Shown here one piece after another: positions 9,437 to 41,653 of a DNA stretch of 64,000 bases. The notes below the pieces were generated by a model. That model had not been told where the DNA came from and searched no databases. It worked only from the letters and a program-made list of their open reading frames with translations. Origin of the DNA: Salinigranum marinum (GTDB taxonomy: Archaea; Halobacteriota; Halobacteria; Halobacteriales; Haloferacaceae); the NCBI RefSeq assembly GCF_024228675.1, contig NZ_CP100461.1, positions 124,001 to 188,000 of the forward strand. Direction: 5' to 3'. The translations under genes and the position numbers were made by a program. The number at the start of each line of letters is the position of its first letter. Within the stretch, counting starts at the first letter, position 1.

Positions 9437-9509
9437 GGGGTCCGTCCTTCGTCTCTGAGGGTCGGGCCACACGGCGTGTGTCGTCACGCCGCGCCGTGTG
9501 GGTCGGCGC

Positions 9510-10652: not shown

Positions 10653-10657
10653 GGTGA

Positions 10658-11527: not shown

Positions 11528-11532
11528 CTGTG

Positions 11533-12427: not shown

Positions 12428-12484
12428 ATGAAACGGTGTCGGAGCCGGGTACTTAATTGCTACTGCTTCGCCGGACGGCGCGGC

Positions 12485-21151: not shown

Positions 21152-22330
21152 ATGAGCCAAGAAGTGCCAAGAAATCTGAATAGCACCCGTCACCGCTCTC
21201 CCCTCGAGACGGACGCCACCTCGTCCGGAACTGACGTCGGTGACGCCGTGCTGGAGATCACTGATCTCAAGAAGACGTTTCAGAACGGATCCGTCCTGGC
21301 GGTCGACAACGTCAGCCTGACCATCGAGTCGGAGGAGTTCGTCGTCCTGCTTGGCCCGTCTGGGTGCGGGAAGACGACGACGTTGCGGTGTATCGCCGGC
21401 CTCGAACTGCCGGACGAGGGAACGATTCGACTGCACGGGAGAGACATCACCGATCTCAAGCCCCACCGGCGGAATCTCGCGTTCGTGTTCCAAGACACGA
21501 CGCTGTTTCCACATATGTCGGTGAAGAAGAACATACAGTACGGCCTGGATATGATGACCGCGCTGTCCGAGGAAGAGAAAACGGAGATGGTCCGCGACGT
21601 TGCCACGCAGCTCGACATCGAGGACAAGCTCGAAGAGAACCCCGGTAATCTCTCCGGCGGCCAGCAACAGCGGGTCAGCCTCGGCAGAGCGATGGTGATG
21701 GACCCGGATCTGTTCTTGCTCGACGAACCGTTCACGGCGCTCGACGCAAATCTCCGCGACCACATGCGGACCAAAATAAAGGAGCTCCAACGGACGGTCG
21801 AGCGGACGATGATCTTCGTGACGCACAATCAGGAGGAAGCTCTGACCGTCGGTGACAAGGTCGTCGTGATGAACGAGGGGCAGGTCTACCAGGCCGGGTC
21901 ACCGTACGAGGTGTACTACGACCCACAGAACCTGTTCGTCGCGTCGTTCATCGGGTCACCGACGACGAACATGTTCGAGTGCACTGTCGGTACGGACGAC
22001 GACGACGCGGTCGTCCTCTCGCACGACGTTCTCGAGTACTCGTTCGTCGGCGAACGGGCAGAACGTCTCCGACCGTTCGTCGGCGAGACTGTCACGCTGG
22101 CCGTCCGTCCCGAATTCATCGAACTCGACGACTCAGAGGGACTCTTCTCGGCTGACGTCCGACTTCGCGAGTCCCACGGTACTCACGATGTGATCTACCT
22201 GGAGCGCGGAGACACGGAGATCGCGGTCATCGTACCACCCGCGCAGATCGAACACGAAGACGAGACGAAGTACATCTCCTTCTCCGAAGACGTCTGGGTG
22301 TTCGGGCAGAGCGGCCAGCGTCTCGTGTAG
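21152..22330 (+). CDS. ABC transporter ATPase, PotA (polyamine/ferric) type
   Basis: About 392 residues. Walker A GPSGCGKTT is at 68-76, Q-loop FQDTTLFPHM, signature LSGGQQQRV from 167, Walker B FLLDEP with Asp191, switch VTHNQEEA, and a C-terminal TOBE-like domain. It is preceded by about 30 extra polar residues. It lies alone on the plus strand, while the two permeases and the binding protein are on the minus strand downstream. Since no other ATPase is near, it most likely powers that importer. ATG 21152 (MSQEVPRN) is chosen over TTG 21137. Confidence 0.9.
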   Translation: MSQEVPRNLNSTRHRSPLETDATSSGTDVGDAVLEITDLKKTFQNGSVLAVDNVSLTIESEEFVVLLGPSGCGKTTTLRCIAGLELPDEGTIRLHGRDITDLKPHRRNLAFVFQDTTLFPHMSVKKNIQYGLDMMTALSEEEKTEMVRDVATQLDIEDKLEENPGNLSGGQQQRVSLGRAMVMDPDLFLLDEPFTALDANLRDHMRTKIKELQRTVERTMIFVTHNQEEALTVGDKVVVMNEGQVYQAGSPYEVYYDPQNLFVASFIGSPTTNMFECTVGTDDDDAVVLSHDVLEYSFVGERAERLRPFVGETVTLAVRPEFIELDDSEGLFSADVRLRESHGTHDVIYLERGDTEIAVIVPPAQIEHEDETKYISFSEDVWVFGQSGQRLV

Positions 22331-22450
22331 ACGACCGTTGGGTCGCCCGGTGGACGTGTCGCTCGTCGCGGTGCGGTCTGGGCTGGAGGTGGTGTTACCT
22401 GAGCGTGTCGGGTCCTTTTCGATGGCCGACACGAACTACGCGATCCGTCT

Positions 22451-22840: not shown

Positions 22841-22928
22841 CGGGGTATATACTTACGCGGTTTCCTCCGAACACGGAGATCGCGTACCGAATCCCGTTGA
22901 GTCTCTCACCCGAGTTCAGGGAAGACCG

Positions 22929-23849
22929 TCAGGAGCGACCACTGTTGAACGGTTCCGTGATGTCCACGAGGTGATTCAGCACCACGATCAGCACGAGGAC
23001 GGGGATCATGAGGAAGACGGAGACTGCCGATGCGGCAGGGTAGTTCACTCCCTGGTTCACGAGCGTGAACAGGTAGCTCGTGATCTGCCCCTTCCCGCTG
23101 CTGAGTAGACGCGGGACGAGGAAGTTGCCGATCGTCAGCAGGAACACCAGGAATGTTCCGATCGTGACGCCGGGAAGGCTCATCGGCCAGATCACGGACC
23201 GAAAGATCGAGACCGGGGTCCCGCAGAATATCTTCGCCGTGTCGATGTGCTCGTCTTCGACTTGCGTGAGGGAGATGAATATCGGGCCAGTCATGAATAT
23301 CGAGTAGTTGAGTAGATATCCCCACGCAACGGAGATCCGGGTGAACATCAGTGCCAGCGGGGCGTCGATGAGGCCGATCTCTAAGAGTAGCTTGTTCACC
23401 ACGCCGAGCTTTCCGAGCACGGAGAACACCGAGTACATCCGGACGACCTCCATCGTGAAAAACGGGATCAACAGCAGGAGGAAGACGAACAGGCTCTGTG
23501 TGAAGCTGAGGTGAAACCTGAGGTAGTAAGCCAGCGGATAGCCGATCAGAAGGGAGATCGCGACCACGGCGACGCCGTAGAGGAACGTCAGAACCATCGC
23601 GTTGAAAAAGGTCATGTTCATGACGTTTTGATACTGGCTGATGGTGAGTTCGTATACGATGCTGTAGTTCTCGAAGGACATGAACGAGCTGACCACCAGC
23701 ATCAAGAGAGGGATCACCAGAAACGCGACGAACCAGAGAACTGCTCCTCCCAGGATGAGGTAACTGTACGTGATGTTGCTCGGCACCGCTCCACGGCCGA
23801 CTCGCTCGGTCAGTCCGCCGATGTACGACGCCAGGTTTCGTTGGGACAT
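22929..23849 (-). CDS. ABC transporter permease, PotB type
   Basis: 306 residues with six membrane helices. The EAA loop is near EHIDTAKIFCGTPVSIFRSVIWPMSLPG, the contact site for the ATPase. It resembles PotB/CysT permeases of importers for polyamines and other small organic ions. The gene follows the solute-binding protein by 50 bases and is probably cotranscribed with it. With the second permease at 25656 and the ATPase at 21152 it forms a complete importer. Confidence 0.9.
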   Translation of the reverse strand: MSQRNLASYIGGLTERVGRGAVPSNITYSYLILGGAVLWFVAFLVIPLLMLVVSSFMSFENYSIVYELTISQYQNVMNMTFFNAMVLTFLYGVAVVAISLLIGYPLAYYLRFHLSFTQSLFVFLLLLIPFFTMEVVRMYSVFSVLGKLGVVNKLLLEIGLIDAPLALMFTRISVAWGYLLNYSIFMTGPIFISLTQVEDEHIDTAKIFCGTPVSIFRSVIWPMSLPGVTIGTFLVFLLTIGNFLVPRLLSSGKGQITSYLFTLVNQGVNYPAASAVSVFLMIPVLVLIVVLNHLVDITEPFNSGRS

Positions 23850-23899
23850 GACAGTTCTGTTGAATTCGTCTTGTGGATTCGAATCGTCTTACTACCCGA

Positions 23900-25282
23900 C
23901 TACGCGCCGGTGAACTCCTGCCACTGTTCGACCATATACTCGTTTTCGTTGGGAGCGACGTGCCAGGCACCGACCGCGGGCAGGAAGTCCTTGACGCCCC
24001 CCCGGAACCGTGTGTGGCCGTCGGGACTCGACTCGTACTCGCCGTCCGTCCACTCGTAGTTGCTCGGTGTGAACATGAACTGGCCATCGACAGGCTTGCT
24101 GGTTGCCGTGCCCTCGTAGAACCAGTCGTAGAACTCCGTCGGCATTCCAGGCTCGCCCCGAACGAGGTCCTTGTTCGGGTACTGCGGGACGATGTACCCC
24201 GACTGACCGACGAATCCGGCGTACCACGCTGTCAGGTGCAGGTCGAGGAACTTCGCCACTTCGTCCTCGTTGTTCCGGTCGGAGACGCCGGGTTTGAGCG
24301 GGATCGTCCCGCCCATCCAGGCGTCGTACCCCTGTAGGCTCTGTTGGCTCTCCTGCCGTGCAAGCTTCGCGTAGCCGGTGGGAGTGCCGTTCTCCCGCGT
24401 TCCCAGAACCGCAGGCCCCCAGATGTTCCCGATGATCGCCTCCTCGGACGAGAAGAAGTTGATCTGGGTTCCGAGATCGCTGAACAGGGCCTTGAACTGC
24501 CCTGCTTGTTTTTGCTTGACCAGGAAGTCCACCATCGCGTCGATGTGCTCCTGTGTCGGGTCGCTGATCTCGCGGAGCGACGCGTCGACCATCCCCCTGT
24601 CCGCGAGGTGCATCATCGCCACCACGTACGACACCGTGGACAGTTGGTTGAACATCGACTTCCCCTTGTACTTGTCGTCGAAGATGGCACTCCACTCGTC
24701 GACATCGCTGGGGACCTGCCTCGGATTGAACCCGACGGAGTCGGCGTTGAACACGTTGGGATAGAACTGAATCTCGTCTTGAGAATCGACGTCGTTCCAG
24801 ATGACCTCGGCGTGTCGGTCGAACTGGCCGTCGTACACTTCGGTCCCGTTGAGGATGTACTCCGTGACGTTGTCCTCGTTCCAGTTTTCGATGCTTGCGG
24901 GATCGATCGGACTCGCCATATCGTTCCCGATGATCTGCGGCGCCAACTGTCCGCCAGTGAACAGCGCATCAAAGACCTCGTTCCCGCCACTCAAGACCTG
25001 TCTGTTGGCCGCTGCTTGGGCCTTGACCGTGAACTCGGTGTCGATGCCCGTCACTTCCTCGAACCGCTCCCGCTTTCCTTCCCGGAGCCCCCACGCTGGA
25101 CCGAGGATCTGGAGCGGTCTCTCGCCCGTTTCCACGCCACTTTGAGTCGTTTCCGCGGTGCCGCCGTCGCCACCGGCGTCAGTGGCCGAGCTACTACTGC
25201 TCCCGTCGCCTCCCGTACACCCCGCGATGGCAGCCGTCAAGCCAGTACCGGCTGCTGCTAGCAGGTTTCTACGTTTGACCAT
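23900..25282 (-). CDS. ABC transporter solute-binding lipoprotein, PotD type
   Basis: 460 residues. The N-terminus KRRNLLAAAGTGLTAAIAGC is a Tat-like lipoprotein signal, and a Ser/Asp/Gly linker follows. The body has the family 1/8 extracellular solute-binding pattern: LQILGPAWGLREGKRERFEEVTG near the start, with many acidic and aromatic residues as in polyamine-binding PotD proteins. It would capture the substrate of the island outside the cell. An AT-rich promoter region (CATAAATAATTACTGG, 25316-25331) lies upstream. The ligand is not predictable; the neighbours suggest a cyclic or nitrogenous organic compound. Confidence 0.88.
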   Translation of the reverse strand: MVKRRNLLAAAGTGLTAAIAGCTGGDGSSSSSATDAGGDGGTAETTQSGVETGERPLQILGPAWGLREGKRERFEEVTGIDTEFTVKAQAAANRQVLSGGNEVFDALFTGGQLAPQIIGNDMASPIDPASIENWNEDNVTEYILNGTEVYDGQFDRHAEVIWNDVDSQDEIQFYPNVFNADSVGFNPRQVPSDVDEWSAIFDDKYKGKSMFNQLSTVSYVVAMMHLADRGMVDASLREISDPTQEHIDAMVDFLVKQKQAGQFKALFSDLGTQINFFSSEEAIIGNIWGPAVLGTRENGTPTGYAKLARQESQQSLQGYDAWMGGTIPLKPGVSDRNNEDEVAKFLDLHLTAWYAGFVGQSGYIVPQYPNKDLVRGEPGMPTEFYDWFYEGTATSKPVDGQFMFTPSNYEWTDGEYESSPDGHTRFRGGVKDFLPAVGAWHVAPNENEYMVEQWQEFTGA

Positions 25283-25655
25283 TTTTCTTCTACATCGGTC
25301 GATGAATACTCATACGCATAAATAATTACTGGTATATGCAATTGCTATCCGAGCAGAACACAACGTGTGTGCACTGTTTATCGGCTATAACTGACGCACG
25401 GAAAGGGGGGCACCGACGAGACGCCGATGCTGGCCGTGTCGCCTCGGGACCTCGAGCGGGATCGCCCGACCGCCGAGACCAGGCCAGTTAGCCTGAACAA
25501 CCAGTCGCACTGTTCCTCCTGCTCCGATCTCGGATACGAGCCGTTCATCGACCGGAGGATGGGGTCTCTCCTGGCACGACACGGCACGAGACGAATCACA
25601 CCGCGTCGAGAGCGCTCCGAAGTCGGATCGAAGCGGGCCGACGGCACTCACCGTC
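25283..25655. other. Spacer with promoter of the binding-protein gene
   Basis: Separates the second permease gene from the binding-protein gene. The proximal part is AT-rich (25305-25352) with a TATA-like ATAAATAATTA on the minus-strand approach to 25282. The distal 300 bases hold no gene that I can support. Confidence 0.45.
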
Positions 25656-26504
25656 TCAGCTACTGGACGCTGCCGAGCGGCCATACAGTATCAGGGCGAA
25701 ACTCAGGATCAACACGACGATCGAGACGGTCGACGTGAGGGATCCGAGCGCGGCGAGTCCTGGAGTCGGATCGCGCGAAGCGACCGAGTACACCTCGAGC
25801 GGCATCGTGTTGTCCGTCCCCAGCAACAGGAGACTCCGGTCCAGTTCGTTGTAGGACAGCGTAAACGCGAACACGGCCGCACCGAACACCTGGAACTTGA
25901 TTTCGGGGAGGATGATCGTGTAAGCCACCTCGAAGTCGTTCGCGCCGAAGACCCGGGCAGCCTCCTCGTGATCCGTCAGATTTGGCGGCATTCCGGCGAG
26001 AAAGAGGATGAACGAGAACGGGAAGGCCCAGATAACGTGAACTGGAAGCCCCAGCCAGAGTCCCTGCTTGAGGCCGACCACCTCGCCCAAGAATACCGTG
26101 ATACCGATGCCGTACATTATCCCTGGGGTGACAATCCCGAGCAAGAACAGGTAGATGATGAGGTTCTTTCCTCTGAACCGATGACGGAACGCCAGCGCGC
26201 TCCCGGTCGAAAGAACCGTCACGACGACTGTGACAGCAGCCGCCAGTTTGACCGAGTTGACGAACGACGCGGAGAACGCACCGGACTGCAGCACCTCGTT
26301 GTACCAGTCGAGGGTGATGTCAACGAATGGGAACGTTATCCCTCCAGAATTGAACGAAAAGACGAGTAACGCGACCACCTGACTGTATACGAACAGACCG
26401 ACGAGCAACAGATGGATCTGCAACAGGCGTTTCGTGTTGATGGCACTCACGACACTGTTCACTTTCCCGTGCCACACCGATCGAGCCGACGATTTTCCAG
26501 GCAT
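25656..26504 (-). CDS. ABC transporter permease, PotC type
   Basis: 282 residues, six helices. An EAA-type loop is seen at DHEEAARVFGANDFEVAYTIILPEI. It resembles PotC, the second permease of polyamine-type importers, and pairs with the PotB-type gene at 22929. Here the permease precedes the binding protein, with a 373-base gap, an unusual order. The start MPGKSSARSVW gives a basic cytoplasmic N-terminus before the first helix. Confidence 0.9.
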   Translation of the reverse strand: MPGKSSARSVWHGKVNSVVSAINTKRLLQIHLLLVGLFVYSQVVALLVFSFNSGGITFPFVDITLDWYNEVLQSGAFSASFVNSVKLAAAVTVVVTVLSTGSALAFRHRFRGKNLIIYLFLLGIVTPGIMYGIGITVFLGEVVGLKQGLWLGLPVHVIWAFPFSFILFLAGMPPNLTDHEEAARVFGANDFEVAYTIILPEIKFQVFGAAVFAFTLSYNELDRSLLLLGTDNTMPLEVYSVASRDPTPGLAALGSLTSTVSIVVLILSFALILYGRSAASSS

Positions 26505-26822: not shown

Positions 26823-28166
26823 TCACGTAATCTGGTCGTAGACTACCTCGACGGATTCGCTGACCACGTCAGCGATCTGGTCGATCGAGTCCTCACCAGT
26901 GATCAGCGGCGGTGCCATCATGATGTGGTCGCCTCTGGTCCCGTCTGCGCTGCCTCGACCGGGGAAGGTGTATACACCGCGGTCCAGCGCCTCGTTGTAC
27001 ACTCGCTTGTACACCTTCAACTCGGGATCGAACGGCTCTTTGGTTGCCGTATCGGCGACAAACTCGACCCCCAGCATGAGTCCCTTCTGACGGATATCAC
27101 CGACGATGGGGTGGTCTTCGAGTGCTCCGAGCCTCTCTCGCAGCTGGTCACCCCGCGCTTGTCCCTGTTCGATGACCTCGTCGGTGTAGTAGTCGAGCAC
27201 GTGGGAGGCGACTGCGGCGGAGAGTGGGTTCCCGGCGTACGTGAACCCGTGCGCGAACGAACTCCCCTTCCGACTGTCGAACTGGGCTGCGATTTCGTCG
27301 TTCACCACCACACCGCTGATCGGGGAGTACCCGCTCGAGAGCCCCTTCCCGATCACCATGATGTCCGGAACCACGCCGAAGTTCTCCATGCCGAACATCT
27401 CGCCCGTTCGCCCGAATCCCGTCATGATCTCGTCCGCGATGAAGACGACGTTGTACTCGTCGCAGATCCGCCTGATCTCTTTGAAGTATGCAGGGTGAGG
27501 ATGGGCTGCTGGCACGCTGGATCCCGACACCGGCTCCGCGACGAACGCCGCGACGGTCTCGGGACCCTCCTGTTGGATGGCGGTCTCCAGTTCCTGTGCG
27601 GCTTGTATCGCTTGCTCTTCCGGCGACCCCTCGTACTCCCACCGGTAGGGGTACGCTGGCGGGATGTGTGGGTAGTTCTTCAACAGCGGTTTGTACTGTG
27701 ACCGCCGATGCGTGTTGCCAGTGAGCGAGAGCGCGCCGATCGTGGCGCCGTGGTACGACTGCCACCGCGAGATGAACGTCGTCTTCTGCTCGTCCCCGTT
27801 CTCCTGATGGTAGCGCCGAACGAGCTTCATCGCCGAATCGACTGTCTGACTCCCGGAACTGACGAAGAAGGACGTGTTGAGATCGCCCGGCGTCATCTCC
27901 GCTAGCTTCTCGGCTAGTTCCTCGAGCGGATCCGAGGTGAAGTTCGAGGTCATCACCAGCGCGACCCCGTCCTCGACCTGTTTCTTCATTAGCTCGCCGA
28001 CACCAGGAACGGAGTGTCCGAGGTTAATCACGACGGCCGCCGAAGCCGCGTCGATTATCTCGTCACCGTTCTGGGCAACCAGAAACTCGTCGTGTGCACT
28101 CTTGATGTTCGGGAGATCGGCGCCGACACCGGAGCCCCATTTGTAGAATACGTTCTCCGTACCCAT
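26823..28166 (-). CDS. PLP-dependent class III aminotransferase
   Basis: 447 residues. It transfers an omega- or alpha-amino group to a keto acid. Seen: the PLP-lysine Lys274 in MVIGKGLSSGYSP, the cofactor Asp in FIADEIMTGFGRTG, the phosphate-binding region VSSGSQTVDSAMKLVRRYH, and the C-terminal IMMAPPLITGEDSID typical of beta-alanine, GABA or glutamate-1-semialdehyde type enzymes. In the island it could remove the amino group left after ring opening, for example from beta-alanine-like products. It stands upstream of the importer genes on the same strand, after an AT-rich leader (28170-28215). Confidence 0.9.
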   Translation of the reverse strand: MGTENVFYKWGSGVGADLPNIKSAHDEFLVAQNGDEIIDAASAAVVINLGHSVPGVGELMKKQVEDGVALVMTSNFTSDPLEELAEKLAEMTPGDLNTSFFVSSGSQTVDSAMKLVRRYHQENGDEQKTTFISRWQSYHGATIGALSLTGNTHRRSQYKPLLKNYPHIPPAYPYRWEYEGSPEEQAIQAAQELETAIQQEGPETVAAFVAEPVSGSSVPAAHPHPAYFKEIRRICDEYNVVFIADEIMTGFGRTGEMFGMENFGVVPDIMVIGKGLSSGYSPISGVVVNDEIAAQFDSRKGSSFAHGFTYAGNPLSAAVASHVLDYYTDEVIEQGQARGDQLRERLGALEDHPIVGDIRQKGLMLGVEFVADTATKEPFDPELKVYKRVYNEALDRGVYTFPGRGSADGTRGDHIMMAPPLITGEDSIDQIADVVSESVEVVYDQIT

Positions 28167-28690: not shown

Positions 28691-30046
28691 ATGGCATTAG
28701 CAGATGTTGTAGTCACCGGTGCCAAGGTACTCCACGACGGCACGCTGGACCGACTGAACCTCGGAATCACGGACGGTGAAATAACTCACATATCCAAACC
28801 CGGGATGGGGCCAGAGGGAAGAGCGTCCCTCGAACTCGACGGCGAACTCGTCATCCCTGGGGCCGTCGAAGAGCACATTCACCTGCGGGAACCTGGATAC
28901 GTGGAGAAAGAGGGGATCGTTACGGGAAGCGCTGCTGCGGCCGCTGGTGGAGTGACCACGATCGTCGAAATGCCCAACACCACCCCGCCGGTGTCGACGA
29001 GGGCCCGGTGGGAGGAGAAAGCCGCGCTGTTCGACCGGAAATCGCACGTGGACTTCGCGCTGTACGGTGCCATTACCGAGGACAACGTCGGAACTGGCGA
29101 CATACAGGAACTGGCAGAGGCCGGCGCGACTGGATTCAAGACGTTCATGGCAACGAGTTTCGGTCCGCTACTCATCAGCGACAAAGCACTGCTCCTGTCG
29201 GCGTTCGAAGAGGTGAAAGAGACGGGACGGCCGATCTACATCCACGCCGAGGACGAGGAGTACCTGGACGGGTTTCGAGAGCGTGTCGAACGGGACGGAA
29301 CGAGCGGAATGGACGCGTTCTTCGACTCCCGTCCGCCGATCGCCGAGACGACCGCGATCGCGGACGTTCTCGACATCGTTCGGGAGATCGGGACCGAGAC
29401 GGTGGTTGTGCACGTCACGACCAGCGAGGGGGTCGATCGTATAGACCGCGCACGGCAAGCGGGGCTCCCCGTCGAGGCGGAAGTCACTCCGTACCACTTG
29501 GCCTTCGACGAGGAACGACTTCGGGCGGTCGGAACGGAAGGGATCGGTACGCCGCCGGTACGAGACGAGGAAAACAGGCAGGCGCTCTGGTCTCAACTCA
29601 CAGACGGCCGCGTCCAACTCCTCGGTAGCGATCACGCCCCGCACACCGCGGCTGAAAAAGACGGTGAACCGCTCGAGGTGCCCCCCGGGATGCCGCAGGT
29701 CGAAACGGCGCTCCCGTTCCTCCTCGACGCGGTCAATCGCGGACACACGACGATCGATCGAGTGGTCGACCTCTACTCGACGCGCCCGGCGAAAAAACAC
29801 GGACTCTATCCACGGAAGGGAACGATCAGCGTCGGCTCCGACGCCGACTTCGTGGTCGTGGATCCAGACGAGCCGTGGACGGTCGATCCAGCGGACTTCG
29901 AATCGAGCGGGAAGTACAGCCCGTTCGACGGTTGGACTTTCTCGGCGTCGATCCTGGCGACGTACCAGCGAGGGGAACTAATCGCGGAAAACCGGCACAC
30001 GACCAACTCCCCCGGAGACGGGCAGTTGTACCAGCGGTCGGACTGA
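28691..30046 (+). CDS. Second cyclic amidohydrolase (dihydroorotase/allantoinase type)
   Basis: 451 residues with the same fold as the enzyme at 18954 but clearly different in sequence. Metal-site residues: His62 and His64 in EEHIHLREPG, Lys150 in GFKTFMATSFG, His185 in YIHAED, the His in VVHVTTSEG and the Asp in GSDHAP. The HLREPG motif and VEMPNTTPP are characteristic of dihydroorotase/allantoinase. It heads a plus-strand run with the asparaginase and the phosphotriesterase-family gene. Two paralogues in one island suggest two ring substrates or two successive rings. Confidence 0.9.
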   Translation: MALADVVVTGAKVLHDGTLDRLNLGITDGEITHISKPGMGPEGRASLELDGELVIPGAVEEHIHLREPGYVEKEGIVTGSAAAAAGGVTTIVEMPNTTPPVSTRARWEEKAALFDRKSHVDFALYGAITEDNVGTGDIQELAEAGATGFKTFMATSFGPLLISDKALLLSAFEEVKETGRPIYIHAEDEEYLDGFRERVERDGTSGMDAFFDSRPPIAETTAIADVLDIVREIGTETVVVHVTTSEGVDRIDRARQAGLPVEAEVTPYHLAFDEERLRAVGTEGIGTPPVRDEENRQALWSQLTDGRVQLLGSDHAPHTAAEKDGEPLEVPPGMPQVETALPFLLDAVNRGHTTIDRVVDLYSTRPAKKHGLYPRKGTISVGSDADFVVVDPDEPWTVDPADFESSGKYSPFDGWTFSASILATYQRGELIAENRHTTNSPGDGQLYQRSD

Positions 30047-30170
30047 GGCTCCGAACCGCCCCTCACACCGAGCGACCGGTCGCTCGGTCGCTCGCGTCGA
30101 TCAGTTTCCGATGGGATGGAGCGGGCCAGTTGTCTATAAGTACCGCCGTTTCGGATACGAAAAACGACGT

Positions 30171-31130
30171 ATGTCAGTCGTAATCATCTCGACCGGCGGT
30201 ACGATAGCGGCGACAGAAGACGACGGTGGGGATGCCAGCCCGGACCTGAGCGGAGGAGAGATCGCAGAGAGCGTTCCGGGGTTGCAGAACCTCACCGAGA
30301 TCGAGACCGACGACTTCTCGACGGTACCGAGTCCTCACTTCACCATCGAACAGATGTACGATCTCGTGGTGAAGATCCGAGACCTCGATCGGAACAGCGA
30401 TGTCGAGGGAATCGTCGTGACGCAGGGGACCGATATCCTCGAAGAGTCCGCGTACTTCGTCAGCCTGTGTTACGACGGTTCGACGCCCGTTGCCTTCACC
30501 GGGGCGATGCGCGGACCTTCGCTCGCGAGTCCAGACGGACCGGTGAACGTCCTCGATAGCGTACGGACGACTCTGAACTGTGCGGAGACGACAGCGAACG
30601 TGTTCGTCGTGTTCAACAACCGGATCCACCCTGCCAGAAGCGTGACAAAGACACACTCGATGGCGGTCGATACGTTCCGATCGCCCGAGTTCGGCCCGCT
30701 CGGGTTCGTCGAAGAGGACCGAGTGGTGTGGCGACGGGGACACGTCGAGCCTGACGAGACGTTCGACCCGACACCGGAGCGGCTCACGAACGACGTCCAC
30801 GCGGTCACGATCACGGCGGACTCACCGCCGGGTCAAATCCACGCGGCCGCCGACGCGGATGGCCTCTGCTTTGCCGCGCTCGGTGTCGGCCACGTTCCCC
30901 AGACGCTCCTCGATCCGCTGCGTGACCTGACCGAGATCGGCGTCCCCGTCGTCGCGACCACGCGCTGTCCGGAAGGACGTGTCGCCCGGCACACGTACGA
31001 CTTCCCTGGGAGCGAACAGACGATCCGTGACGAACTCTCGATCCCCGTTTCGGACCGCAACCTCCAGAAGACTCGGATCAAGACGATCGTTGCACTCGCG
31101 GCCGGCCGCTTCGAGACCGCGTTCTCGTGA
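30171..31130 (+). CDS. L-asparaginase-family amidohydrolase
   Basis: About 319 residues. Asparaginases hydrolyse the side-chain amide of asparagine. Both catalytic motifs are present: ISTGGTIA with Thr11, and VTQGTD (residues 83-88) with the second Thr-Asp. FTGAMRGPSLASPDGPVNV matches the lysine/arginine loop region of the family. ATG 30171 is preceded by TATA-like CTATAAGTACC at 30133-30143 and fits the family N-terminus; upstream frame is not conserved. In this island it may release ammonia from an amide intermediate. Confidence 0.88.
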   Translation: MSVVIISTGGTIAATEDDGGDASPDLSGGEIAESVPGLQNLTEIETDDFSTVPSPHFTIEQMYDLVVKIRDLDRNSDVEGIVVTQGTDILEESAYFVSLCYDGSTPVAFTGAMRGPSLASPDGPVNVLDSVRTTLNCAETTANVFVVFNNRIHPARSVTKTHSMAVDTFRSPEFGPLGFVEEDRVVWRRGHVEPDETFDPTPERLTNDVHAVTITADSPPGQIHAAADADGLCFAALGVGHVPQTLLDPLRDLTEIGVPVVATTRCPEGRVARHTYDFPGSEQTIRDELSIPVSDRNLQKTRIKTIVALAAGRFETAFS

Positions 31131-31242: not shown

Positions 31243-32349
31243 ATGAGTGATGATGCAGGCTCCGCCGTCGGAGTCAACGGACAGATAGATCCCGATCAGT
31301 TGGGTGTGACGTCCGCCCACGAGCACACGTTCATCGACATGCGGAACTGGTTCCTCATGCCCGAGACGGCCGAGGAACGGCGGCTCGCCGAAGAACCAGT
31401 TTCCCTCGAGAACCTGTGGTATCTCCGTCGTAACCCGACCAACAACCGGGACAACTACCTTCTCGGCTCGACGGACGTGGCGATCGACGAACTGGCCGAG
31501 TTCTACCGCGCAGGTGGCGAGACCATCGTGGATGTGACCCCGAAGGGGATCGGCCAGGATCCTCGACGGGTCCGCGAGATCAGCCGAGCGACCGGGATCC
31601 AGTTCGTCCACGGGACGGCGTACTACGTGCGAAACAGCCATCCCGACAGAGTTGCCGCGGCGAGCGCGGCGGACCTCGAAGAGGAGTTCGTGAGTGACGT
31701 TCGGGAGGGGATCGACGGGACCGACGTCCGGGCCGGCATCATCGGCGAGATCGGGCTGAGCACCGACTCCGAAGGGGAGATGTATCCGCAAGAAGAGAAG
31801 GTCCTCCGGGCAGCCGCCCGCGCGGCCGTCCGAACCGGCGCCCCACTGACGATTCACCCCCCAGGATGGACGGAAGCCGCACAGCGAGACCGGACCTACC
31901 CGACCTCCCGCTGGGCGCTGGAGGTCCTCGATATCGTGGAGGAGACGGGACTCGACCCGGGGCGTGTCGTCATGGATCACATGGACAGGTCGCTGTACGA
32001 GGACCTCGACTACCAGAAGGAACTCGCGTCCCGGGGGCCCTACCTCGAGTACGACATCTGGGGGGCGGAGTTCTACCGGGACGAGTACAACGACGGGTTC
32101 CCGTCGGACAGATGGCGTATCGAGGCCGTCAGCGAACTCGTCGATGCGGGCTATCTGTCTCAACTGCTCTTTGCACAGGACATCTGTCAGAAGCTCCAGC
32201 TGAGGAAGTACGGTGGGTTCGGGTACGCACACCTCCTGCGGAACGTCGTCCCCATGCTGCGGGAACACGGCTTCTCTCAGGACCAACTCGACACGATCCT
32301 GATCGACAACCCGAAACGCATGCTCACCTTCGACCCGCCCGAAGAGTAA
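31243..32349 (+). CDS. Phosphotriesterase-family metal-dependent hydrolase
   Basis: About 368 residues, a TIM-barrel amidohydrolase-superfamily enzyme. Metal ligands: His26 and His28 in SAHEHTF, the bridging Glu169 in IIGEIGLS (Glu in place of the carbamylated Lys, as in the PHP/PTER branch), His205 in TIHPPG, His246 in MDHMDR and Asp313 in AQDIC. A TATA box CTTTATATC (31206-31214) about 30 bases before ATG 31243 supports the start. Members of the branch hydrolyse lactones, phosphoesters or N-acyl amino acids. The gene converges with the chaperonin gene, 24 bases apart. Confidence 0.88.
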   Translation: MSDDAGSAVGVNGQIDPDQLGVTSAHEHTFIDMRNWFLMPETAEERRLAEEPVSLENLWYLRRNPTNNRDNYLLGSTDVAIDELAEFYRAGGETIVDVTPKGIGQDPRRVREISRATGIQFVHGTAYYVRNSHPDRVAAASAADLEEEFVSDVREGIDGTDVRAGIIGEIGLSTDSEGEMYPQEEKVLRAAARAAVRTGAPLTIHPPGWTEAAQRDRTYPTSRWALEVLDIVEETGLDPGRVVMDHMDRSLYEDLDYQKELASRGPYLEYDIWGAEFYRDEYNDGFPSDRWRIEAVSELVDAGYLSQLLFAQDICQKLQLRKYGGFGYAHLLRNVVPMLREHGFSQDQLDTILIDNPKRMLTFDPPEE

Positions 32350-32373: not shown

Positions 32374-34137
32374 TCAGTCCGACAACTCGTCGAACCGGTG
32401 GCTGTCCGGGTTCCGCTTGAGGTGGTCTTGCTGCTGTTCGGCGACGTCGTCGTAGATCGCGTCGTCGGGGTCAGGAGCCGTTTCGGTAAACTCGGCGTCG
32501 ATGGCGTCGTCGACCCGCAACACGAGAACGGCCAGTTCGGTCGCGGTCACGTAGATCTGTTTTCGGTTCGCAGTCGGGTCGACGACGCCCGCATCCAAGA
32601 CGTCACCGATGGTTCCTTGCGGGAGTATCAAGCCAGCGGTCGAACCCTCGCTGTCCTGCTTCGTCTTCGCGTTCGCCACCGTCGTGAGCGCGTCGAGCCC
32701 GGCGTTTCTCGCGAGGGTCGCCGGTACCTCTTCGGCTGCGTCCGCGAACGCTTCCATCGCCAGCCCGACCCGCGAACCCTCGCTCCTCGCCGCGTGTCGG
32801 AGTCGCTGGGCGATCCGGACGTCGACTGCTCCCCCACCCGGGACGATACCTGGCTGTGCTCCGCCGTAGCCTTTCGCCGTCGCGACCGCAGCGGCGGCCT
32901 GTCGGAGCATCGTCGTGGCCTGTTCCGCGAGCTGTCCACTGACGCCGTGTAACTGGATGCAGACGGAGTTCGGGTCGGAGCAGCCGTCGAACACCACCAT
33001 CCGGCGAGTCCGCTTACTACCCGGCCTCGAGTCACCTGTGACCTCCTCGACGACGCCGGCCCGTCCGAGATCGTCCTCGGACACGTCGGTGATGTCCTGC
33101 ACCAGTGCGGCACCGGTTGCCAGTGCGACCTGCTGGAGGTCGATCCGGTTCACACCTCGAATCCCCACGATGCCGTTGTCGACGAGCAGCTGCTGATACG
33201 CCGGAATGATCCCCTGGCGTGCGACGACGACGTCGACTCCCGCCGCGACCAGCGTTTCGACGACCGCCCGGCGACGGGCGACGAGCGGTTCGTCGATCCC
33301 CGCGATCGTCTCTGGATCGTCCGTTTCGACTCTGATCTTCTTCGTGTCCGGATCCTGTAATCCGCCCCCGGAATCGTACCCCGAGAGGACGAGGACCTTC
33401 GCGTCGGTGACGCGGGTTGGCATCTCGGAGTGACAGAGCTTGTTCCTGTCGAGGACCGCCCCGTGGATCACCCGCGAGTCGGCTATCGACCCGGTTCGCG
33501 TGGCTCGGACCGCCATCGTGACCTCGTCCGGCATGCCGATCGTTTCGACGACCTCAACGGCGGCCTCGGCCCACCGTTCGGCGAACCCACCGACGTCGTT
33601 TCCCGTGAGCGCGGTCCGAGCGACGTGCCACTCGGCGCTGTGTGCTTTCGGTGGGAGCGACAGCTCTCGCGTCTCCTCGTCGATCGTGCGGAGCGCCACG
33701 TCGAGCCCTCGCATGTAGCCCGCACAGACCGTGTATGGATGGACTCCCCGCTCGATGAGTGACTCTGCCTCACTGAGCATGGCGGCGAGCAGTACCACCG
33801 TCGTCGAGACGCCGTCACGGATTTCCGCCCCTTCGACGGTCTCTTCGTCGGTCTGTTCTGGCCCGAGGATGCCACCGACGAGCCGACCGATCGGATGTCC
33901 AAGAGGCAGTTTGTCGAGAATCGTCGCCCCGTCGCTCGTCGCGACGTAATCGTCGAACGAGGGGGCCGCCGACGAGTCTTCCCTCGTTTCCAGCTGTCGT
34001 ACCACGAGTTTGTCCCGGGAGGCCGGTCCCAGACTCGACGCGAGAACACGTGAGATGGCCTCGACCGCGATGATGTTCGCTCTCGGGAACTTCAGCTCCA
34101 CGTCGTGTTCGGTTTGATCGATTTCTGGCCGTTGCAT
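32374..34137 (-). CDS. Divergent group II chaperonin (thermosome-like) paralogue
   Basis: 587 residues that align by eye over their whole length with thermosome subunits: LGPASRDKL (36-44), SDGATILD (68-75, usually NDGATILD), GVHPYTVCAGY (131-141), LVQDITDVSEDDLG (345-358), VPGGGAVD (432-439), GVVDPTANRKQIY (517-529) and VLRVDDAID (539-547). The nucleotide motif GDGTTT reads RDGVSTT (107-113). The region of the hydrolytic Asp (usually DAL before GGGA) reads QAA at 413-415, with an insertion of about nine residues before GGGA. An ATP-hydrolysis defect is therefore possible. Canonical folding of many substrates seems unlikely; a specialised role for neighbouring enzymes is inference. A TATA-like box CTTTTTACC near 34163 gives a nearly leaderless start. 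Confidence 0.85.
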   Translation of the reverse strand: MQRPEIDQTEHDVELKFPRANIIAVEAISRVLASSLGPASRDKLVVRQLETREDSSAAPSFDDYVATSDGATILDKLPLGHPIGRLVGGILGPEQTDEETVEGAEIRDGVSTTVVLLAAMLSEAESLIERGVHPYTVCAGYMRGLDVALRTIDEETRELSLPPKAHSAEWHVARTALTGNDVGGFAERWAEAAVEVVETIGMPDEVTMAVRATRTGSIADSRVIHGAVLDRNKLCHSEMPTRVTDAKVLVLSGYDSGGGLQDPDTKKIRVETDDPETIAGIDEPLVARRRAVVETLVAAGVDVVVARQGIIPAYQQLLVDNGIVGIRGVNRIDLQQVALATGAALVQDITDVSEDDLGRAGVVEEVTGDSRPGSKRTRRMVVFDGCSDPNSVCIQLHGVSGQLAEQATTMLRQAAAAVATAKGYGGAQPGIVPGGGAVDVRIAQRLRHAARSEGSRVGLAMEAFADAAEEVPATLARNAGLDALTTVANAKTKQDSEGSTAGLILPQGTIGDVLDAGVVDPTANRKQIYVTATELAVLVLRVDDAIDAEFTETAPDPDDAIYDDVAEQQQDHLKRNPDSHRFDELSD

Positions 34138-34463: not shown

Positions 34464-34469
34464 TCAGGG
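34439..34469 (-). terminator. Hairpin at the end of hyuA
   Basis: CCCTGAAG (34439-34446) and CTTCAGGG (34462-34469) are a perfect 8-base inverted repeat with a 15-base loop. One arm overlaps the hyuA stop codon. It could end hyuBA transcription. It also resembles CTTCAGG-type ends of haloarchaeal tnpB elements, so its identity is uncertain. Confidence 0.4.
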
Positions 34470-36524
34470 GTTGATGTAGTAGTTGTTCGCTTCGGTGATG
34501 CTGAGCTGGCTTCCGGGCGGGAGCACGACCGTCGTGGTATCGGCGTCGATGAACGCGGGCCCGTCGATCTCGTGACCGGGAGCGAGCGCGGAGTCGTCGT
34601 ACGCCTTCGCGTCGACGTACTCCCCATCGAAGAACGCCTCACGCTCGTCGTGAACTGCGCTGGAGACCGGGCTGTCCGCTCCGTCCACCGTCGGATGGCC
34701 GAGTTCCTCCGTTCGACCGACTGCCTCGACCCGCCAGTAGAGGAACTCCACTGCTTCGTCGGCCTGACTGAACCCGTACGTGTTGTCGTGCACCTGGTGG
34801 AAGTTCTCCGACAGTCGGTCGAGGTCGTCCTCGTCGACCCGAGACGAGGGGATGTCCGTCTGTAGCTCCCAGATCTGCTGTGGATACCGCGCCTCGGTGT
34901 AGAAGTTCAGCTTCCGGCGGTCCTGGTCGATGCCGAGACGGTCGAAGAACGCCTCTGCGTCGGCCTCAAGCGATCTCAGGGTGTCGTTTACTTCGTCGAA
35001 GTCGAACCCGTCGCTGACCGTATGCAGACTCGCAGAGAAGTCTCGACGGACGTCCGAGAGGAGCCCACCAGTCGCACTGACCACGCCCGCCTTACGCGGG
35101 AGGAGCAGTTCCTCGATCTGGAGCTCGCCGGCGACCTGTGCGGCAAACATCCCCAACGCACCCCCACCACCTGAGAGGACGTACTGTCGCGGGTCGATCC
35201 CACGTTCGACCGTCACTTCCTGAATACCGTTGATCAGGTCCTGCGCCGAGGTCGCGTAGATCAGCCGAGCGGCCTCCTCGACACTCAGGCCGAGTCTGTC
35301 TCCGATTTTCGTCTCGATCGCTCGTTCGGCTGCCTCCGTATCAGGGGTCATTTTCCCCCCCAGGAAGTACTCCTCGCTGAGATAACCGAGCACGAGCGCG
35401 GCGTCAGTGACAGTCGGCTCCTCACCGCCGCGGCCGTAACACACCGGTCCTGGCTGGGAGCCGGCACTCTTCGGGCCGACGTGGAGCAGTCCCCCTCTGT
35501 CGATCCACGCGATACTGCCACCGCCTGACCCGATGCTCTCGACTTCGACCTTCTCGATCCCGAGGAGGTCGTCGCCGACCGTAGCCTCCCGCGTACGTGG
35601 GATGGTGCCGTTCTGAACGACGGCCATGTCGAAACTCGTTCCACCCATATCGAGCGCGATCACGTTGTCGTTGTTGAGCTCGGACCGGACGTACGCCCGC
35701 GACGAGACCGGGAACATCGTCGGACCCGAATCCACGGTCCAGATCGGATTCCGAGAGACCTCTTCAGCAGTCATGATGCCCCCGTTTGCGGTGATGATCA
35801 GCGGTTCGTCCTCGTACCCGTACTGCACCAGAGTCTCTTTCAAATCGCTGAAATAATCCCGAATGAGACCGTACAGGGAGGCGTCGATGCAGGTCGAAAC
35901 CGTTCGGCGGTACTCGCGGATGATCGGATTGACCTCGTGACTCAGTGAGTAGTGGAGATCCGGTGCCACCTCTTCGATTACGTCTCCGATCGTGTCCTCG
36001 TGTGCGGGGTTGACGTGGCTCCACAGAAGCGACACCGCGATCGCCTCGACGTCCTTCGCCTTGAGAGACTCGACCGCGCTCCGTACGTCGTCGCGGTCGA
36101 TCGGCTCTTCGACGTCACCCTCTGCGGTTATCCGTTCGTCGACCCCAACGGTGAGTTCTCGAGGGACGTACGGGTCCGGGTAGTCCATATCCCAGTCGTA
36201 CGGGTTGTACTTCCCACCCTCTCGGAGTACCAGTGTGTCGCGGAACCCTTCGGTCGTGATCAACCCCGTGCGATCGACCTCTCCCTCCAGCATCGCGTTC
36301 GTCGAGATGGTCGTGCCGTGTATCAGTCGCGTCGTGTTTGCGAGGAGTTCCCGTGCGGAAAGGCCGCACCGCGCGCCAGCCTCCGCGATCGCGTTCATGA
36401 ACCCGGCCGTGAGGTCGTCGGGAGTCGTCGCGACTTTGATCGAGTCCGATTCGCGTTCCTCCTCGTCCCAGAGGTACAGGTCGGTGAACGTCCCGCCGAT
36501 GTCGATACAGATCTGAAAGCGCAT
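34464..36524 (-). CDS. hyuA: Hydantoinase/oxoprolinase subunit A
   Basis: 686 residues. With HyuB it forms ATP-dependent cyclic amide hydrolases (N-methylhydantoinase, 5-oxoprolinase) or related carboxylases. The N-terminal actin-like ATPase fold shows DIGGTFTDLYLWD (8-20), IHGTTISTNAMLEG (68-81), the second phosphate motif ALDMGGTSFDM (290-300) and GSGGGSIAW (332-340). ATG 36524 shares one base with the hyuB stop (TAATG), so translation is coupled. The domain order is normal and the length fits. The exact reaction cannot be told from sequence. Confidence 0.92.
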   Translation of the reverse strand: MRFQICIDIGGTFTDLYLWDEEERESDSIKVATTPDDLTAGFMNAIAEAGARCGLSARELLANTTRLIHGTTISTNAMLEGEVDRTGLITTEGFRDTLVLREGGKYNPYDWDMDYPDPYVPRELTVGVDERITAEGDVEEPIDRDDVRSAVESLKAKDVEAIAVSLLWSHVNPAHEDTIGDVIEEVAPDLHYSLSHEVNPIIREYRRTVSTCIDASLYGLIRDYFSDLKETLVQYGYEDEPLIITANGGIMTAEEVSRNPIWTVDSGPTMFPVSSRAYVRSELNNDNVIALDMGGTSFDMAVVQNGTIPRTREATVGDDLLGIEKVEVESIGSGGGSIAWIDRGGLLHVGPKSAGSQPGPVCYGRGGEEPTVTDAALVLGYLSEEYFLGGKMTPDTEAAERAIETKIGDRLGLSVEEAARLIYATSAQDLINGIQEVTVERGIDPRQYVLSGGGGALGMFAAQVAGELQIEELLLPRKAGVVSATGGLLSDVRRDFSASLHTVSDGFDFDEVNDTLRSLEADAEAFFDRLGIDQDRRKLNFYTEARYPQQIWELQTDIPSSRVDEDDLDRLSENFHQVHDNTYGFSQADEAVEFLYWRVEAVGRTEELGHPTVDGADSPVSSAVHDEREAFFDGEYVDAKAYDDSALAPGHEIDGPAFIDADTTTVVLPPGSQLSITEANNYYINP

Positions 36525-38335
36525 TACTGACCATCCTCCCTGCGAGCGGCACGAAGCTCTTTCGTTCCGGCTTCGTCGACACGCAACTCGCCATCGATCT
36601 CCTCGATCACGACGCCGTACGCCTCCAGCGCTGCCTCGACGCTCACGTACTGTTCTCTGACGTCCTTCAACACCATCTCGGCGTCTCGGGAGAGCGGATC
36701 ACCGTACCCGCCACCACCGGCGTGCGTCCCGACGATCGTCTCCTCCGGCGTGATGGCTGTACTGTCGCTGATACCGGGCACCTCGACTCGTTCTCCGTCC
36801 GCGGTCACTTTGTACATCACCTGTGCTGCGCCCGCTTTTCCGCCGAGAACCCCCTGTGGCGGGTATTCGATCCCCTGGCAGTAGTGACCGAAGATCAAGC
36901 TCCGTCCTCGCGGCGTGATCTCCGTTATGCTGGCCGGGGCACCGCGCCACTTCCCAGGGCCGGCGGTGTCGGTGAGCAGTTCGCTCCGCTCGACCAGTAT
37001 CGGGAACTCCTGTTCTTCGATCTCCACACTGCTCCGGAACATCACACCACCGACTCCAGGCGTCCCGTAGGTCATCCACCCGTCGTGGCCGTGGTGCCCA
37101 GGCCCGCCGCCGCCGGTCAGGAATATCTGATCGACGAACTCCTCGTCGGTCCGGAAGTCTGTTCCTCGAATGACTGTCCACGGGAGCGACTGTCCACCCG
37201 TATTCCCCTCTGCAAACCCGAACGGCTCTCCGAGTTTCGCAAAGGCGGTCTGCACGGTTCCGTGGAGGAGAGCCGCAATGTTGATCGTCGCCGACGCAGT
37301 CGGCGCCGGAAACTCGGGCTCGCCCACGACCCGTCCCTTCTCTCGTTTTATTTCGATCCGGCTCAGTGCACCGTGGTTGGGGGGGACCATCTCGTCGACT
37401 ACCGAAAGGACGCCTCCGATCACTGACGACGTCGTCGTCGCTTTGGTCGCGTTGAGTCCACAGGTGAGTTGCTTGGGGTTGTCGCGTATGTCGACGACGA
37501 TCTTCTCCTCGTCGTGATCGATGTCGATCTTGACGTTGATCGGCACGCCGTCCGGGGCGGCGTCGTTGAGCGGTATCGGGTCGTGCCAGCACGTGTGCTC
37601 GATTCGCTTTTCTGGCAGGCTCTTTATTTCCTGGCGCATCATCCGTTCGCCGTACTCCAACCAGGCTTCGGTGAACTGCTTCACCGTCTCGACGCCGTAC
37701 TCGTCACAGATCTCTTTCAGTTCGTTCTCCGCGGCTCGGACCGACGCGAGCTGTGCCAGATAGTCGCTATACCACACCTGTTCCCCGTTGCGAACGTTCT
37801 GTTTCAGGAATCGGACGATGTCCTCCCGTTCCTCGTAGTTCTCCCTGATCCGAACCGACGGAAGGTGTGGGCCCTCTTGGAACACGTCCTCGGCACCGGC
37901 CATGTAGCCGGATTCGGGATGACCTACGTCCGGTTGATGACCCCTGTTGACAGCCCAGAACAGCAGTTCGTCGTCGTAGAAGACGGGAGCGTGGTACGTG
38001 TAGTCTCCAGCGTGGGTGTTCCCGGCGTACGGAGAGTTCGTCAAGAAACAGTCTCCCGGCGAGATGTCGTCGTAGTGTTCGAGGGTGTATTCGGGGATGT
38101 AATTGACGTTGCCCACGTGCACCGGAATACCCTCCGTGAACATGAACTGGCGACCGTCTCCAAGGGTGATGGCGTTCGAGAAATCCTTTGCCGCACTGAT
38201 CACCTTCGAGCGCGCAGAGCGGAGCAGCGACTGCGTCATCTCCCGTGTGACTATATCGAATTTCTTCGATAAGATGTTCATTTTGTATGGGTCAATACCG
38301 AACCCCTCGTCAGTTTCCGGGAATGAATTGCTCAC
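36524..38335 (-). CDS. hyuB: Hydantoinase/oxoprolinase subunit B
   Basis: About 603 residues, full length for the HyuB family. It shows PGDCFLTNSPYAGNTHAGDY, GGGGPGHHGHDGWMTYG and a C-terminal GTHAGGGGYGDPLSR, all standard landmarks. Two GTG starts exist, 38353 and 38335. A TATA-like box at 38357-38370 would place transcription at about 38336, so GTG 38335 (MSNSFPETDEGFG) on a leaderless message is preferred. hyuB comes first and hyuA second, one base overlapping. The divergent RidA gene begins 241 bases away. Confidence 0.92.
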   Translation of the reverse strand: MSNSFPETDEGFGIDPYKMNILSKKFDIVTREMTQSLLRSARSKVISAAKDFSNAITLGDGRQFMFTEGIPVHVGNVNYIPEYTLEHYDDISPGDCFLTNSPYAGNTHAGDYTYHAPVFYDDELLFWAVNRGHQPDVGHPESGYMAGAEDVFQEGPHLPSVRIRENYEEREDIVRFLKQNVRNGEQVWYSDYLAQLASVRAAENELKEICDEYGVETVKQFTEAWLEYGERMMRQEIKSLPEKRIEHTCWHDPIPLNDAAPDGVPINVKIDIDHDEEKIVVDIRDNPKQLTCGLNATKATTTSSVIGGVLSVVDEMVPPNHGALSRIEIKREKGRVVGEPEFPAPTASATINIAALLHGTVQTAFAKLGEPFGFAEGNTGGQSLPWTVIRGTDFRTDEEFVDQIFLTGGGGPGHHGHDGWMTYGTPGVGGVMFRSSVEIEEQEFPILVERSELLTDTAGPGKWRGAPASITEITPRGRSLIFGHYCQGIEYPPQGVLGGKAGAAQVMYKVTADGERVEVPGISDSTAITPEETIVGTHAGGGGYGDPLSRDAEMVLKDVREQYVSVEAALEAYGVVIEEIDGELRVDEAGTKELRAARREDGQ

Positions 38336-38356
38336 GCTTCCAATTCGGTACACCCT

Positions 38357-40882: not shown

Positions 40883-41653
40883 ATGACTCAGGATCGAGAA
40901 AACGGGACCCGAAAAACCACTGAGACGTCCCTCTACGTCCTCGATGCGATCGACGATCTCGGTGGCGGGACCCTCTCAGAACTGGCCGAGTTCACTGGGA
41001 TGGCGACGAGCACCCTGCACACCCATCTGCAGACGCTCATCAAGACCGAGCACGTCGCGAAGATCGATGGTGAGTACCACTTGGGTATGAAGATTTTCTA
41101 TCTCGGGGAACGGGCTCGGGTCCGAGACAAGCGGTACGAACTGGCGAGACAGACCGTCTCTGACCTCTCCGAGAGGGTCGCCGAGGAGGTTACGTTCTGT
41201 GTCGAAGAGTACGGCCGCTCGATCGCGTTGTTCAACAAAGCGAACCGCTCGCACGAGGACGGATCACAAGTGGGACAGTACTTCCACATGCACAGTTCTG
41301 CGAGCGGGAAGGCTATGCTTGCGGAGTATCCCGAAGAGCGGGTACACGAGATCGCCGACGAGTACGGACTCCCGAAGTTGACCGAGTCGACGATCACGGA
41401 TATCGACGAACTCCTCGTCGAACTCGGACAGATACGTGAACGGGGGTACGCGATCAACCGCGAAGAGGAGAAGGGGGGACTCCAGGCAGTAGCCATGTCT
41501 GTACACGATCCGGACGGACCCGTGTTCGGCGCGCTCTGTATCATCGGGCCGGCGTATCGGATCTCCGAGCCGGCGGAGGTCGCGGATCGAATCAGACCGG
41601 CGGCAGAAACCCTCGAGCAGTCGTTAGCGAATCGCGTACGACGACCCAGCTGA
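40883..41653 (+). CDS. IclR-family transcriptional regulator
   Basis: 256 residues, full length. The N-terminal winged helix spans about residues 12-75 (SLYVLDAIDDLGGGTLSELAEFTGMATSTLHTHLQTL). The effector-binding domain follows, with SSASGKAMLAEYPEERV, RERGYAINREEEKGGLQAVAMSV and GALCIIGPAYRI as landmarks. It probably senses the substrate or an intermediate of the island and controls the divergent RidA, cupin and hyu genes. The palindromes before its start suggest autoregulation. It is the intact counterpart of the broken IclR gene at 17266. Confidence 0.92.
   Translation: MTQDRENGTRKTTETSLYVLDAIDDLGGGTLSELAEFTGMATSTLHTHLQTLIKTEHVAKIDGEYHLGMKIFYLGERARVRDKRYELARQTVSDLSERVAEEVTFCVEEYGRSIALFNKANRSHEDGSQVGQYFHMHSSASGKAMLAEYPEERVHEIADEYGLPKLTESTITDIDELLVELGQIRERGYAINREEEKGGLQAVAMSVHDPDGPVFGALCIIGPAYRISEPAEVADRIRPAAETLEQSLANRVRRPS

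Follow-up and report, generated by a model that had tools for sequence, protein, structure and literature searches.

The window, by which we mean the whole 64,000-nucleotide stretch of Salinigranum marinum DNA analysed here, carries a divergent group II chaperonin gene, P0001, within an accessory catabolic locus that also encodes an ABC importer. The genes on which the argument rests are listed below; "neighbourhoods" refers to the window and 15 loci around related chaperonins.

21152..22330, plus strand: PotA-like ABC ATPase (family F00, in 16/16 neighbourhoods)
22929..23849, minus strand: PotB-like ABC permease (BPD_transp_1; relatives in 13/16 neighbourhoods examined)
23900..25282, minus strand: solute-binding lipoprotein with a twin-arginine-type N-terminus (MVKRRNLLAAAGTG...AGCTGG, by eye); constant partner
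25656..26504, minus strand: PotC-like ABC permease; constant partner
26823..28166, minus strand: class III aminotransferase
28691..30046, plus strand: amidohydrolase of the allantoinase/dihydroorotase type
30111..31130, plus strand: asparaginase-like protein (family in 9/16 neighbourhoods, including the window)
31243..32349, plus strand: phosphotriesterase-family protein, convergent with P0001
32374..34137, minus strand: divergent group II chaperonin P0001 (587 amino acids plus stop)
34464..36524, minus strand: HyuA-type hydantoinase/oxoprolinase, non-orthologous to those near other members
36524..38353, minus strand: HyuB-type hydantoinase/oxoprolinase
40883..41653, plus strand: IclR-family regulator (IclR-type genes also occur near members L055, L057, L062 and L063)

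The plus strand of 32374-34137 is broken by in-frame stops, and the gene arrangement given by the initial annotation, with P0001 downstream of hyuB-hyuA on the same strand and convergent with the phosphotriesterase-family gene ending at 32349, is correct. The same annotation called P0001 a full-length relative of the group II chaperonins, and this is confirmed by a match to the Pfam family Cpn60_TCP1 (PF00118) of 297.7 bits against a cut-off of 34.3, which spans residues 28-548 and profile positions 1-488 of 490, and by sequence matches to solved thermosome structures down to an E-value of 4e-69. The NCBIfam thermosome equivalog cut-offs are nevertheless missed, with 294.1 against 450 bits and 288.4 against 400 bits. 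An AlphaFold model built from a 52-sequence alignment (pLDDT 85.4, pTM 0.82), which superseded a first model from only 16 clade sequences with a poor equatorial domain (pLDDT 65.9), finds its best PDB matches exclusively among group II chaperonins (thermosome KS-1, Mm-cpn and TRiC among them), at TM-scores of about 0.7-0.9. According to the model, P0001 has the equatorial, intermediate and apical domains and the built-in helical lid of this group, and the lid region keeps its length in the alignment. The host genome holds four chaperonin genes besides P0001, three of which group with ordinary haloarchaeal CCTs while the fourth (L004/L134) is divergent.

To delimit the family, 392 genomes of the order were searched with P0001. 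The scores were bimodal: 15 other genomes contain a homologue at 440-555 bits and 43-52% identity, and all non-clade matches lie at or below 216 bits. The clade is thus carried by 16 of the 392 genomes, the window included, from 10 genera in 6 families. Together with eight members from two family-level searches and one of Haloarcula litorea from a plasmid collection, this gives 25 distinct members, in which the replicons of Natronorubrum bangense, Haladaptatus sp. QDMS2 and Halobellus limi are each counted once; the N. bangense homologue has the accession WP_006068084.1. Beyond the Halobacteria, no member was found among 197 genomes of the phylum, and a scan of genome contigs returned only distant relatives. 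When 76 chaperonins were placed in one tree, the clade (18 rows) formed one side of a branch with an SH-aLRT of 100, outside the CCT1-3 groups; the tree was made by a quick method and has long branches, and does not fix the point at which the clade attaches. We regard the identity of P0001 and its assignment to this clade as practically certain. The view that P0001 is not an ordinary housekeeping thermosome copy is upheld by this separate branch and by the scores below the equivalog cut-offs, and a placement within an ordinary thermosome clade with an intact catalytic Asp, for which the phylogeny was checked, was not found: the clade stands apart and the Asp is replaced.

The nucleotide site was compared by alignment with the KS-1 thermosome of Thermococcus, with the CCTs of the host and with many other chaperonins. 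The positions of interest, all on the minus strand, are:

33916..33936: SDGATIL motif, residues 68-74 (D69 kept, invariant in the clade)
33799..33819: RDGVSTT motif, residues 107-113, counterpart of GDGTTT (D108 kept, V110 for Thr)
33598..33600: codon 180, Asn (TGK to TGN), where Mm-cpn has its gamma-phosphate-sensing Lys (K161)
32899..32901: codon 413, Gln, aligned with the hydrolytic Asp of Mm-cpn (D386) and KS-1 (EDAV)

The initial annotation had read three changed ATPase motifs by eye, and these fared differently. Its QAA at residues 413-415 does mark the loss of the hydrolytic Asp, as Q413 aligns with the Asp of KS-1 EDAV and with Mm-cpn D386; the residue is replaced in 25 of 25 distinct members, by Lys in 23 and by Gln in two (the window and L052), and all ordinary CCTs aligned have Asp there. 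The SDGATIL substitution is real in the alignment, but it does not amount to an altered ATPase motif, because Asp 69 is retained and the change from NDGATIL therefore entails no catalytic loss. The RDGVSTT substitution is likewise real and turns a phosphate-loop Thr into Val110 (Val or Ile across the clade, at the first Thr of GDGTTT), but the key Asp 108, also invariant in the clade, is retained, so that no catalytic Asp is lost at this motif. We had considered the DG motif as the site of the lost Asp and rejected it, since Asp 108 aligns with the Asp of GDGTTT. A feature beyond those in the annotation is the loss of the nucleotide-sensing Lys, with Asn in 25 of 25 members at a position where Lys is found in 34 of 34 ordinary chaperonins (alignment A3). 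The GGGA glycines and the NAG Asn are kept in the clade with few exceptions. The changed site residues, which are fixed in all 25 members and which none of the ordinary CCTs in the alignment has, are far above what would be expected by chance.

Both losses have experimental counterparts in Mm-cpn. The D386A mutant binds ATP and does not hydrolyse it, and its function in vivo is severely reduced (PMC5019054), while Lys161 touches the gamma-phosphate and mutants of its loop have low ATPase activity (PMC5220055). Since P0001 has neither the hydrolytic Asp nor the sensor Lys, we infer from these published mutants that it would be unable to run the normal cycle; judged by its aligned residues, it very probably lacks an ordinary ATP-hydrolysis cycle.

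Other features of P0001, again on the minus strand, are peculiar to the clade:

33958..33993: 12-residue insertion, residues 49-60, within the stem-loop hairpin of the equatorial domain (from the alignment)
33844..33867: 8-residue insertion, residues 91-98, clade consensus VGPERPGD, shortly ahead of the DG motif
33001..33021: basic 7-residue insertion at a beta-hairpin tip, residues 373-379, with GRRKRRR as the clade consensus
32851..32862: 4-residue insertion GAQP, residues 426-429, before PGGGA
32377..32493: conserved C-terminal tail, about residues 549-587, which replaces the GGM-type tail

The model draws a long hairpin (43-50/60-67) around the stem-loop insertion, is of low pLDDT at residues 96-104 near the 8-residue insertion, and places the basic insertion on the hairpin 358-370/377-384. 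The GRRKRRR consensus is unusual for an acidic haloarchaeal protein. The insertion before GGGA, which had already been noted, is visible in the alignment, and the tail follows the clade consensus EPxxPGDAIYDExAExHQDYLEE, with a helix at 563-575 in the model.

These features bear on two alternative views of the protein. One could speculate that P0001 is an inactive, specialised subunit of the CCT complex that co-assembles with CCT1-3 and shifts its client range, the importer link described below being a matter of co-regulation. Group II chaperonins of haloarchaea and eukaryotes are built as hetero-oligomers, P0001 retains the core fold, and ordinary CCT subunits occur in every clade-bearing genome examined. 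The 12-residue stem-loop insertion, however, falls at an intra-ring contact and is expected to disturb packing with ordinary subunits, and a strict link to one importer would be left unexplained, so we consider this decidedly unlikely. The second view is that of a regulatory or sensor ring, which would bind nucleotide or a pathway ligand and modulate the importer ATPases or the chaperonin pool without folding any client. The Mg-site Asp pair, GGGA and NAG mostly persist despite the loss of hydrolysis and gamma-phosphate sensing, a combination that suits binding without turnover, and two of the clade-specific insertions, one beside the pocket and one in the stem loop, would fit such a role as well. 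A pure sensor, on the other hand, would have no need of the lid and the client-binding architecture, which are kept, and to our knowledge no chaperonin regulates an ABC transporter; this view seems quite unlikely to us.

It could also be asked whether P0001 has a function at all, or is a decaying or hitch-hiking paralogue carried along on mobile catabolic islands. Several species have the gene on a megaplasmid, and in a same-genus genome (G659, L192 ~8914-10616) the clade member is split into two frames near residue 190, by a frameshift or a sequencing error. Pairwise dN/dS within the clade is 0.09-0.16, however, which shows purifying selection and led us to reject a pseudogene or a decaying gene; many positions, clade-specific ones included, are invariant at 42-52% identity, and the chaperonin is retained in every importer-carrying island while the surrounding genes vary. 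A paralogue without a function of its own is therefore extremely improbable.

The reading proposed by the initial annotation was of a dedicated folding, assembly or scaffold protein for the neighbouring genes, for example HyuAB, in an accessory pathway. Clade members are indeed embedded in accessory catabolic loci, and a non-housekeeping chaperonin tied to its neighbours agrees with what we find, so that a reading of this kind is still the best one; the choice of HyuAB does not agree, as there is no conserved association. A comparison of the gene families present in the window and in 15 neighbourhoods of up to 20 kb, with names assigned from Pfam and NCBIfam, showed that just 10 of the 16 clade members have HyuA within about 10 kb. 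The window HyuA is 34-37% identical to the HyuAs near other members, which are mostly 63-95% identical among themselves, and no hydantoinase lies within 12 kb of the Haloarcula litorea member, where importer and chaperonin are both present. With adjacency this patchy and the window's own copy non-orthologous, HyuAB is ruled out as the constant partner. The wider enzyme complement also varies between loci: it includes hydantoinases, carbamoylases and amidases, asparaginase-like proteins, subunits of 5-oxoprolinase and a PuuE-like deacetylase. This weighs against a more general form of the idea, in which P0001 would be a static ring that assembles or encloses the neighbouring catabolic enzymes, be it HyuAB or other amide hydrolases. 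Amide or ureide hydrolases of some kind do surround almost all members, and a separate chaperonin lineage lies directly downstream of a formamidase gene in two genomes; given that the enzymes differ by locus and that only the importer is constant, we nevertheless find an enzyme scaffold rather unlikely.

The constant elements across the neighbourhoods are the components of a PotABCD-like importer, whose genes in the window (21152-26504) lie about 6-11 kb from P0001. At most loci the two permease genes flank the chaperonin gene, which usually runs on the opposite strand and is therefore not a simple operon member. A fixed radius of 6 kb undercounts the P0001 clade (a permease is counted for 12 of its 16 loci, and the window's own is missed), and we therefore used a genome-wide co-occurrence test, in which the best few candidates per genome were scored. 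The PotC-like permease and the solute-binding protein were each found in 16 of the 392 genomes, precisely those that carry the chaperonin, with no weaker matches down to 1e-45 and 1e-30, respectively, and both are missing from all 376 chaperonin-free genomes; as the importer and chaperonin genes are physically linked on islands that move together, the 16 genomes do not represent 16 independent events. Among 18 held-out genomes the permease was present in 8 of 8 with the chaperonin and in 0 of 10 without it, and the pairwise divergences of chaperonin and PotC permease are correlated (r = 0.82). The neighbouring permeases best match PotB/PotC models and the ATPases PotA/PhnT2 models, although the window-type importer falls far below the equivalog cut-offs and differs from PotABCD-type importers in having a chaperonin alongside in every genome examined. 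Many haloarchaeal ABC importers have no chaperonin next to them, an example being the second, ugp-like importer of the window (9510-13876), and importers in general thus need none. We hold it highly probable that the functional tie of P0001 is to its importer rather than to HyuAB.

The explanation we favour, with a chance of being right that we would put at about even, is that P0001 is a group II subunit unable to run the folding cycle and acts as the dedicated, non-cycling partner of one PotABCD-like importer. In P0001 the fold with its built-in lid is kept, as is most of the nucleotide pocket, while the normal ATP-hydrolysis folding cycle would have been given up. It may form a ring, either by itself or together with CCT subunits of the cell, that would hold or assemble an importer component in the cytoplasm, working by binding energy and at most by nucleotide binding, with no ATP turnover. 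This holdase or assembly role is in itself a tentative proposal, to which we give somewhat less than an even chance. The most likely client would be the solute-binding protein, with assembly of the permease and ATPase second. Export through the Tat pathway requires folding ahead of translocation, and it is the twin-arginine-type signal, implying folding before export, that makes the solute-binding protein plausible; twin-arginine solute-binding proteins are common in haloarchaea, and the guess at this specific client is therefore a weak one. The importer itself probably supplies amide, ureide or hydantoin-type compounds to the variable hydrolases around it.

Chaperonins are seen as generalist ATP-driven folding machines, and P0001 departs from the known ones in different respects. 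With the archaeal thermosome and haloarchaeal CCT1-3 it shares whole-length homology, the three-domain lidded fold, the NDG and DG Asp, GGGA and NAG, but at about 30% identity, with Lys or Gln for the hydrolytic Asp, Asn for the sensor Lys and xDGV/I for GDGT, and with several insertions, another tail and an accessory, importer-linked gene. In vertebrates, MKKS, BBS10 and BBS12, which are also paralogues derived from group II, act in the assembly of a specific complex, the BBSome; being eukaryotic and without any transporter linkage, they offer a functional analogy only. In two of them, MKKS and BBS12, the motif for ATP hydrolysis is diverged (PMC2846930). Mm-cpn D386A lacks the catalytic Asp at the same position as the P0001 clade, but it is an impaired laboratory mutant, whereas the loss in the clade is natural, fixed and accompanied by that of the sensor Lys. 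The group III chaperonins, such as Ch-CPN of a thermophilic bacterium, are divergent too and have neither the nucleotide-sensing loop of group II nor its Lys; they keep both catalytic Asp residues, and an Arg contacts the gamma-phosphate (PMC5635000), while P0001 keeps the TG loop with Asn in it and has lost one catalytic Asp.

No description of an importer-linked, hydrolysis-deficient chaperonin was found in the literature searched, a search that most subscription journals lay outside. If our explanation is right, a chaperonin ring can be repurposed as the dedicated, non-cycling partner of a membrane transport system, and the clade would offer natural hydrolysis-deficient chaperonins in which the function of the ring could be studied without ATP turnover. 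It would also advise caution against annotation as a thermosome subunit, which some importer-linked relatives carry in public records.

The same pattern recurs in several other chaperonin lineages, which makes it a testable general rule. A modelled-type ABC permease lies within about 6 kb of 8 of 15 loci of other divergent haloarchaeal chaperonins. Including the host's fourth chaperonin, which was found by a search not applied to the control loci, the count is 9 of 15, compared with 0 of 20 ordinary CCT loci and 2 of 20 random stretches of the same contigs (Fisher p 7e-5 and 0.003, respectively, loci of the same clade not being independent). That fourth gene (L134:1774-7205, host genome C1, ~2.51 Mb) follows a likely binding protein-permease-ATPase-permease array on the same strand, and synteny of divergent chaperonin and importer is kept in Haloarcula marina, Haladaptatus salinisoli, H. 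caseinilyticus and H. pallidirubidus. At least four lineages have conserved importer synteny, namely the PotABCD-type amide lineage, a sugar/xylan-type ugp lineage (L123-L125), a GH4/ugp lineage (L117/L042) and an enolase-superfamily ugp lineage whose chaperonins form a tail-to-tail pair (L119-L122). The sensor Lys is absent at the aligned position in all importer-linked divergent lineages, and the catalytic Asp is altered in most members. We give somewhat less than an even chance to the wider idea that, more than once in haloarchaea, group II chaperonins have become non-cycling parts of ABC-importer systems. Such pseudo-chaperonins would make up a general class dedicated to transport, and would prepare or assemble a component of the importer, such as the binding protein exported by the twin-arginine route, with no turnover of ATP.

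Not all divergent chaperonins share the importer link, as two of them are linked to formamidase and have no ABC importer; here the formamidase gene (fmdA) is directly upstream on the same strand (L064:9962-11578, Haloarcula marismortui pNG700, and L116:5643-7253), and the sensor Lys is replaced (TGRW/NGRW). Several further arrangements were observed. In Halomarina and Haladaptatus, two different divergent chaperonins form a tail-to-tail pair (L120:6629-9888, L121:6631-9994, L175:6001-9348 and L176:6001-9260; in L120 and L176 the two genes share a few bases) near a ugp-type importer, or near a binding protein and enolase-superfamily genes, and one partner is without the NDG and hydrolytic Asp residues while the other keeps more. 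In L123, L124, L125, L177 and L178, a divergent chaperonin with MTNGR for MTGKG stands beside a ugpC-permease-permease-SBP importer and adjoins a conserved protein of about 190-245 amino acids, with no Pfam match (tested in L124). Two Haladaptatus plasmids (L115 and L065) carry a tandem divergent pair annotated thsB-thsA, whose thsA has Asn at both catalytic Asp positions. In Methanophagales (L038, L039 and L040), a chaperonin paralogue has SNALSLV instead of NDGATIL, lacks the sensor Lys and carries Ser in place of the hydrolytic Asp; from these residues it is apparently a further hydrolysis-deficient chaperonin of separate origin.
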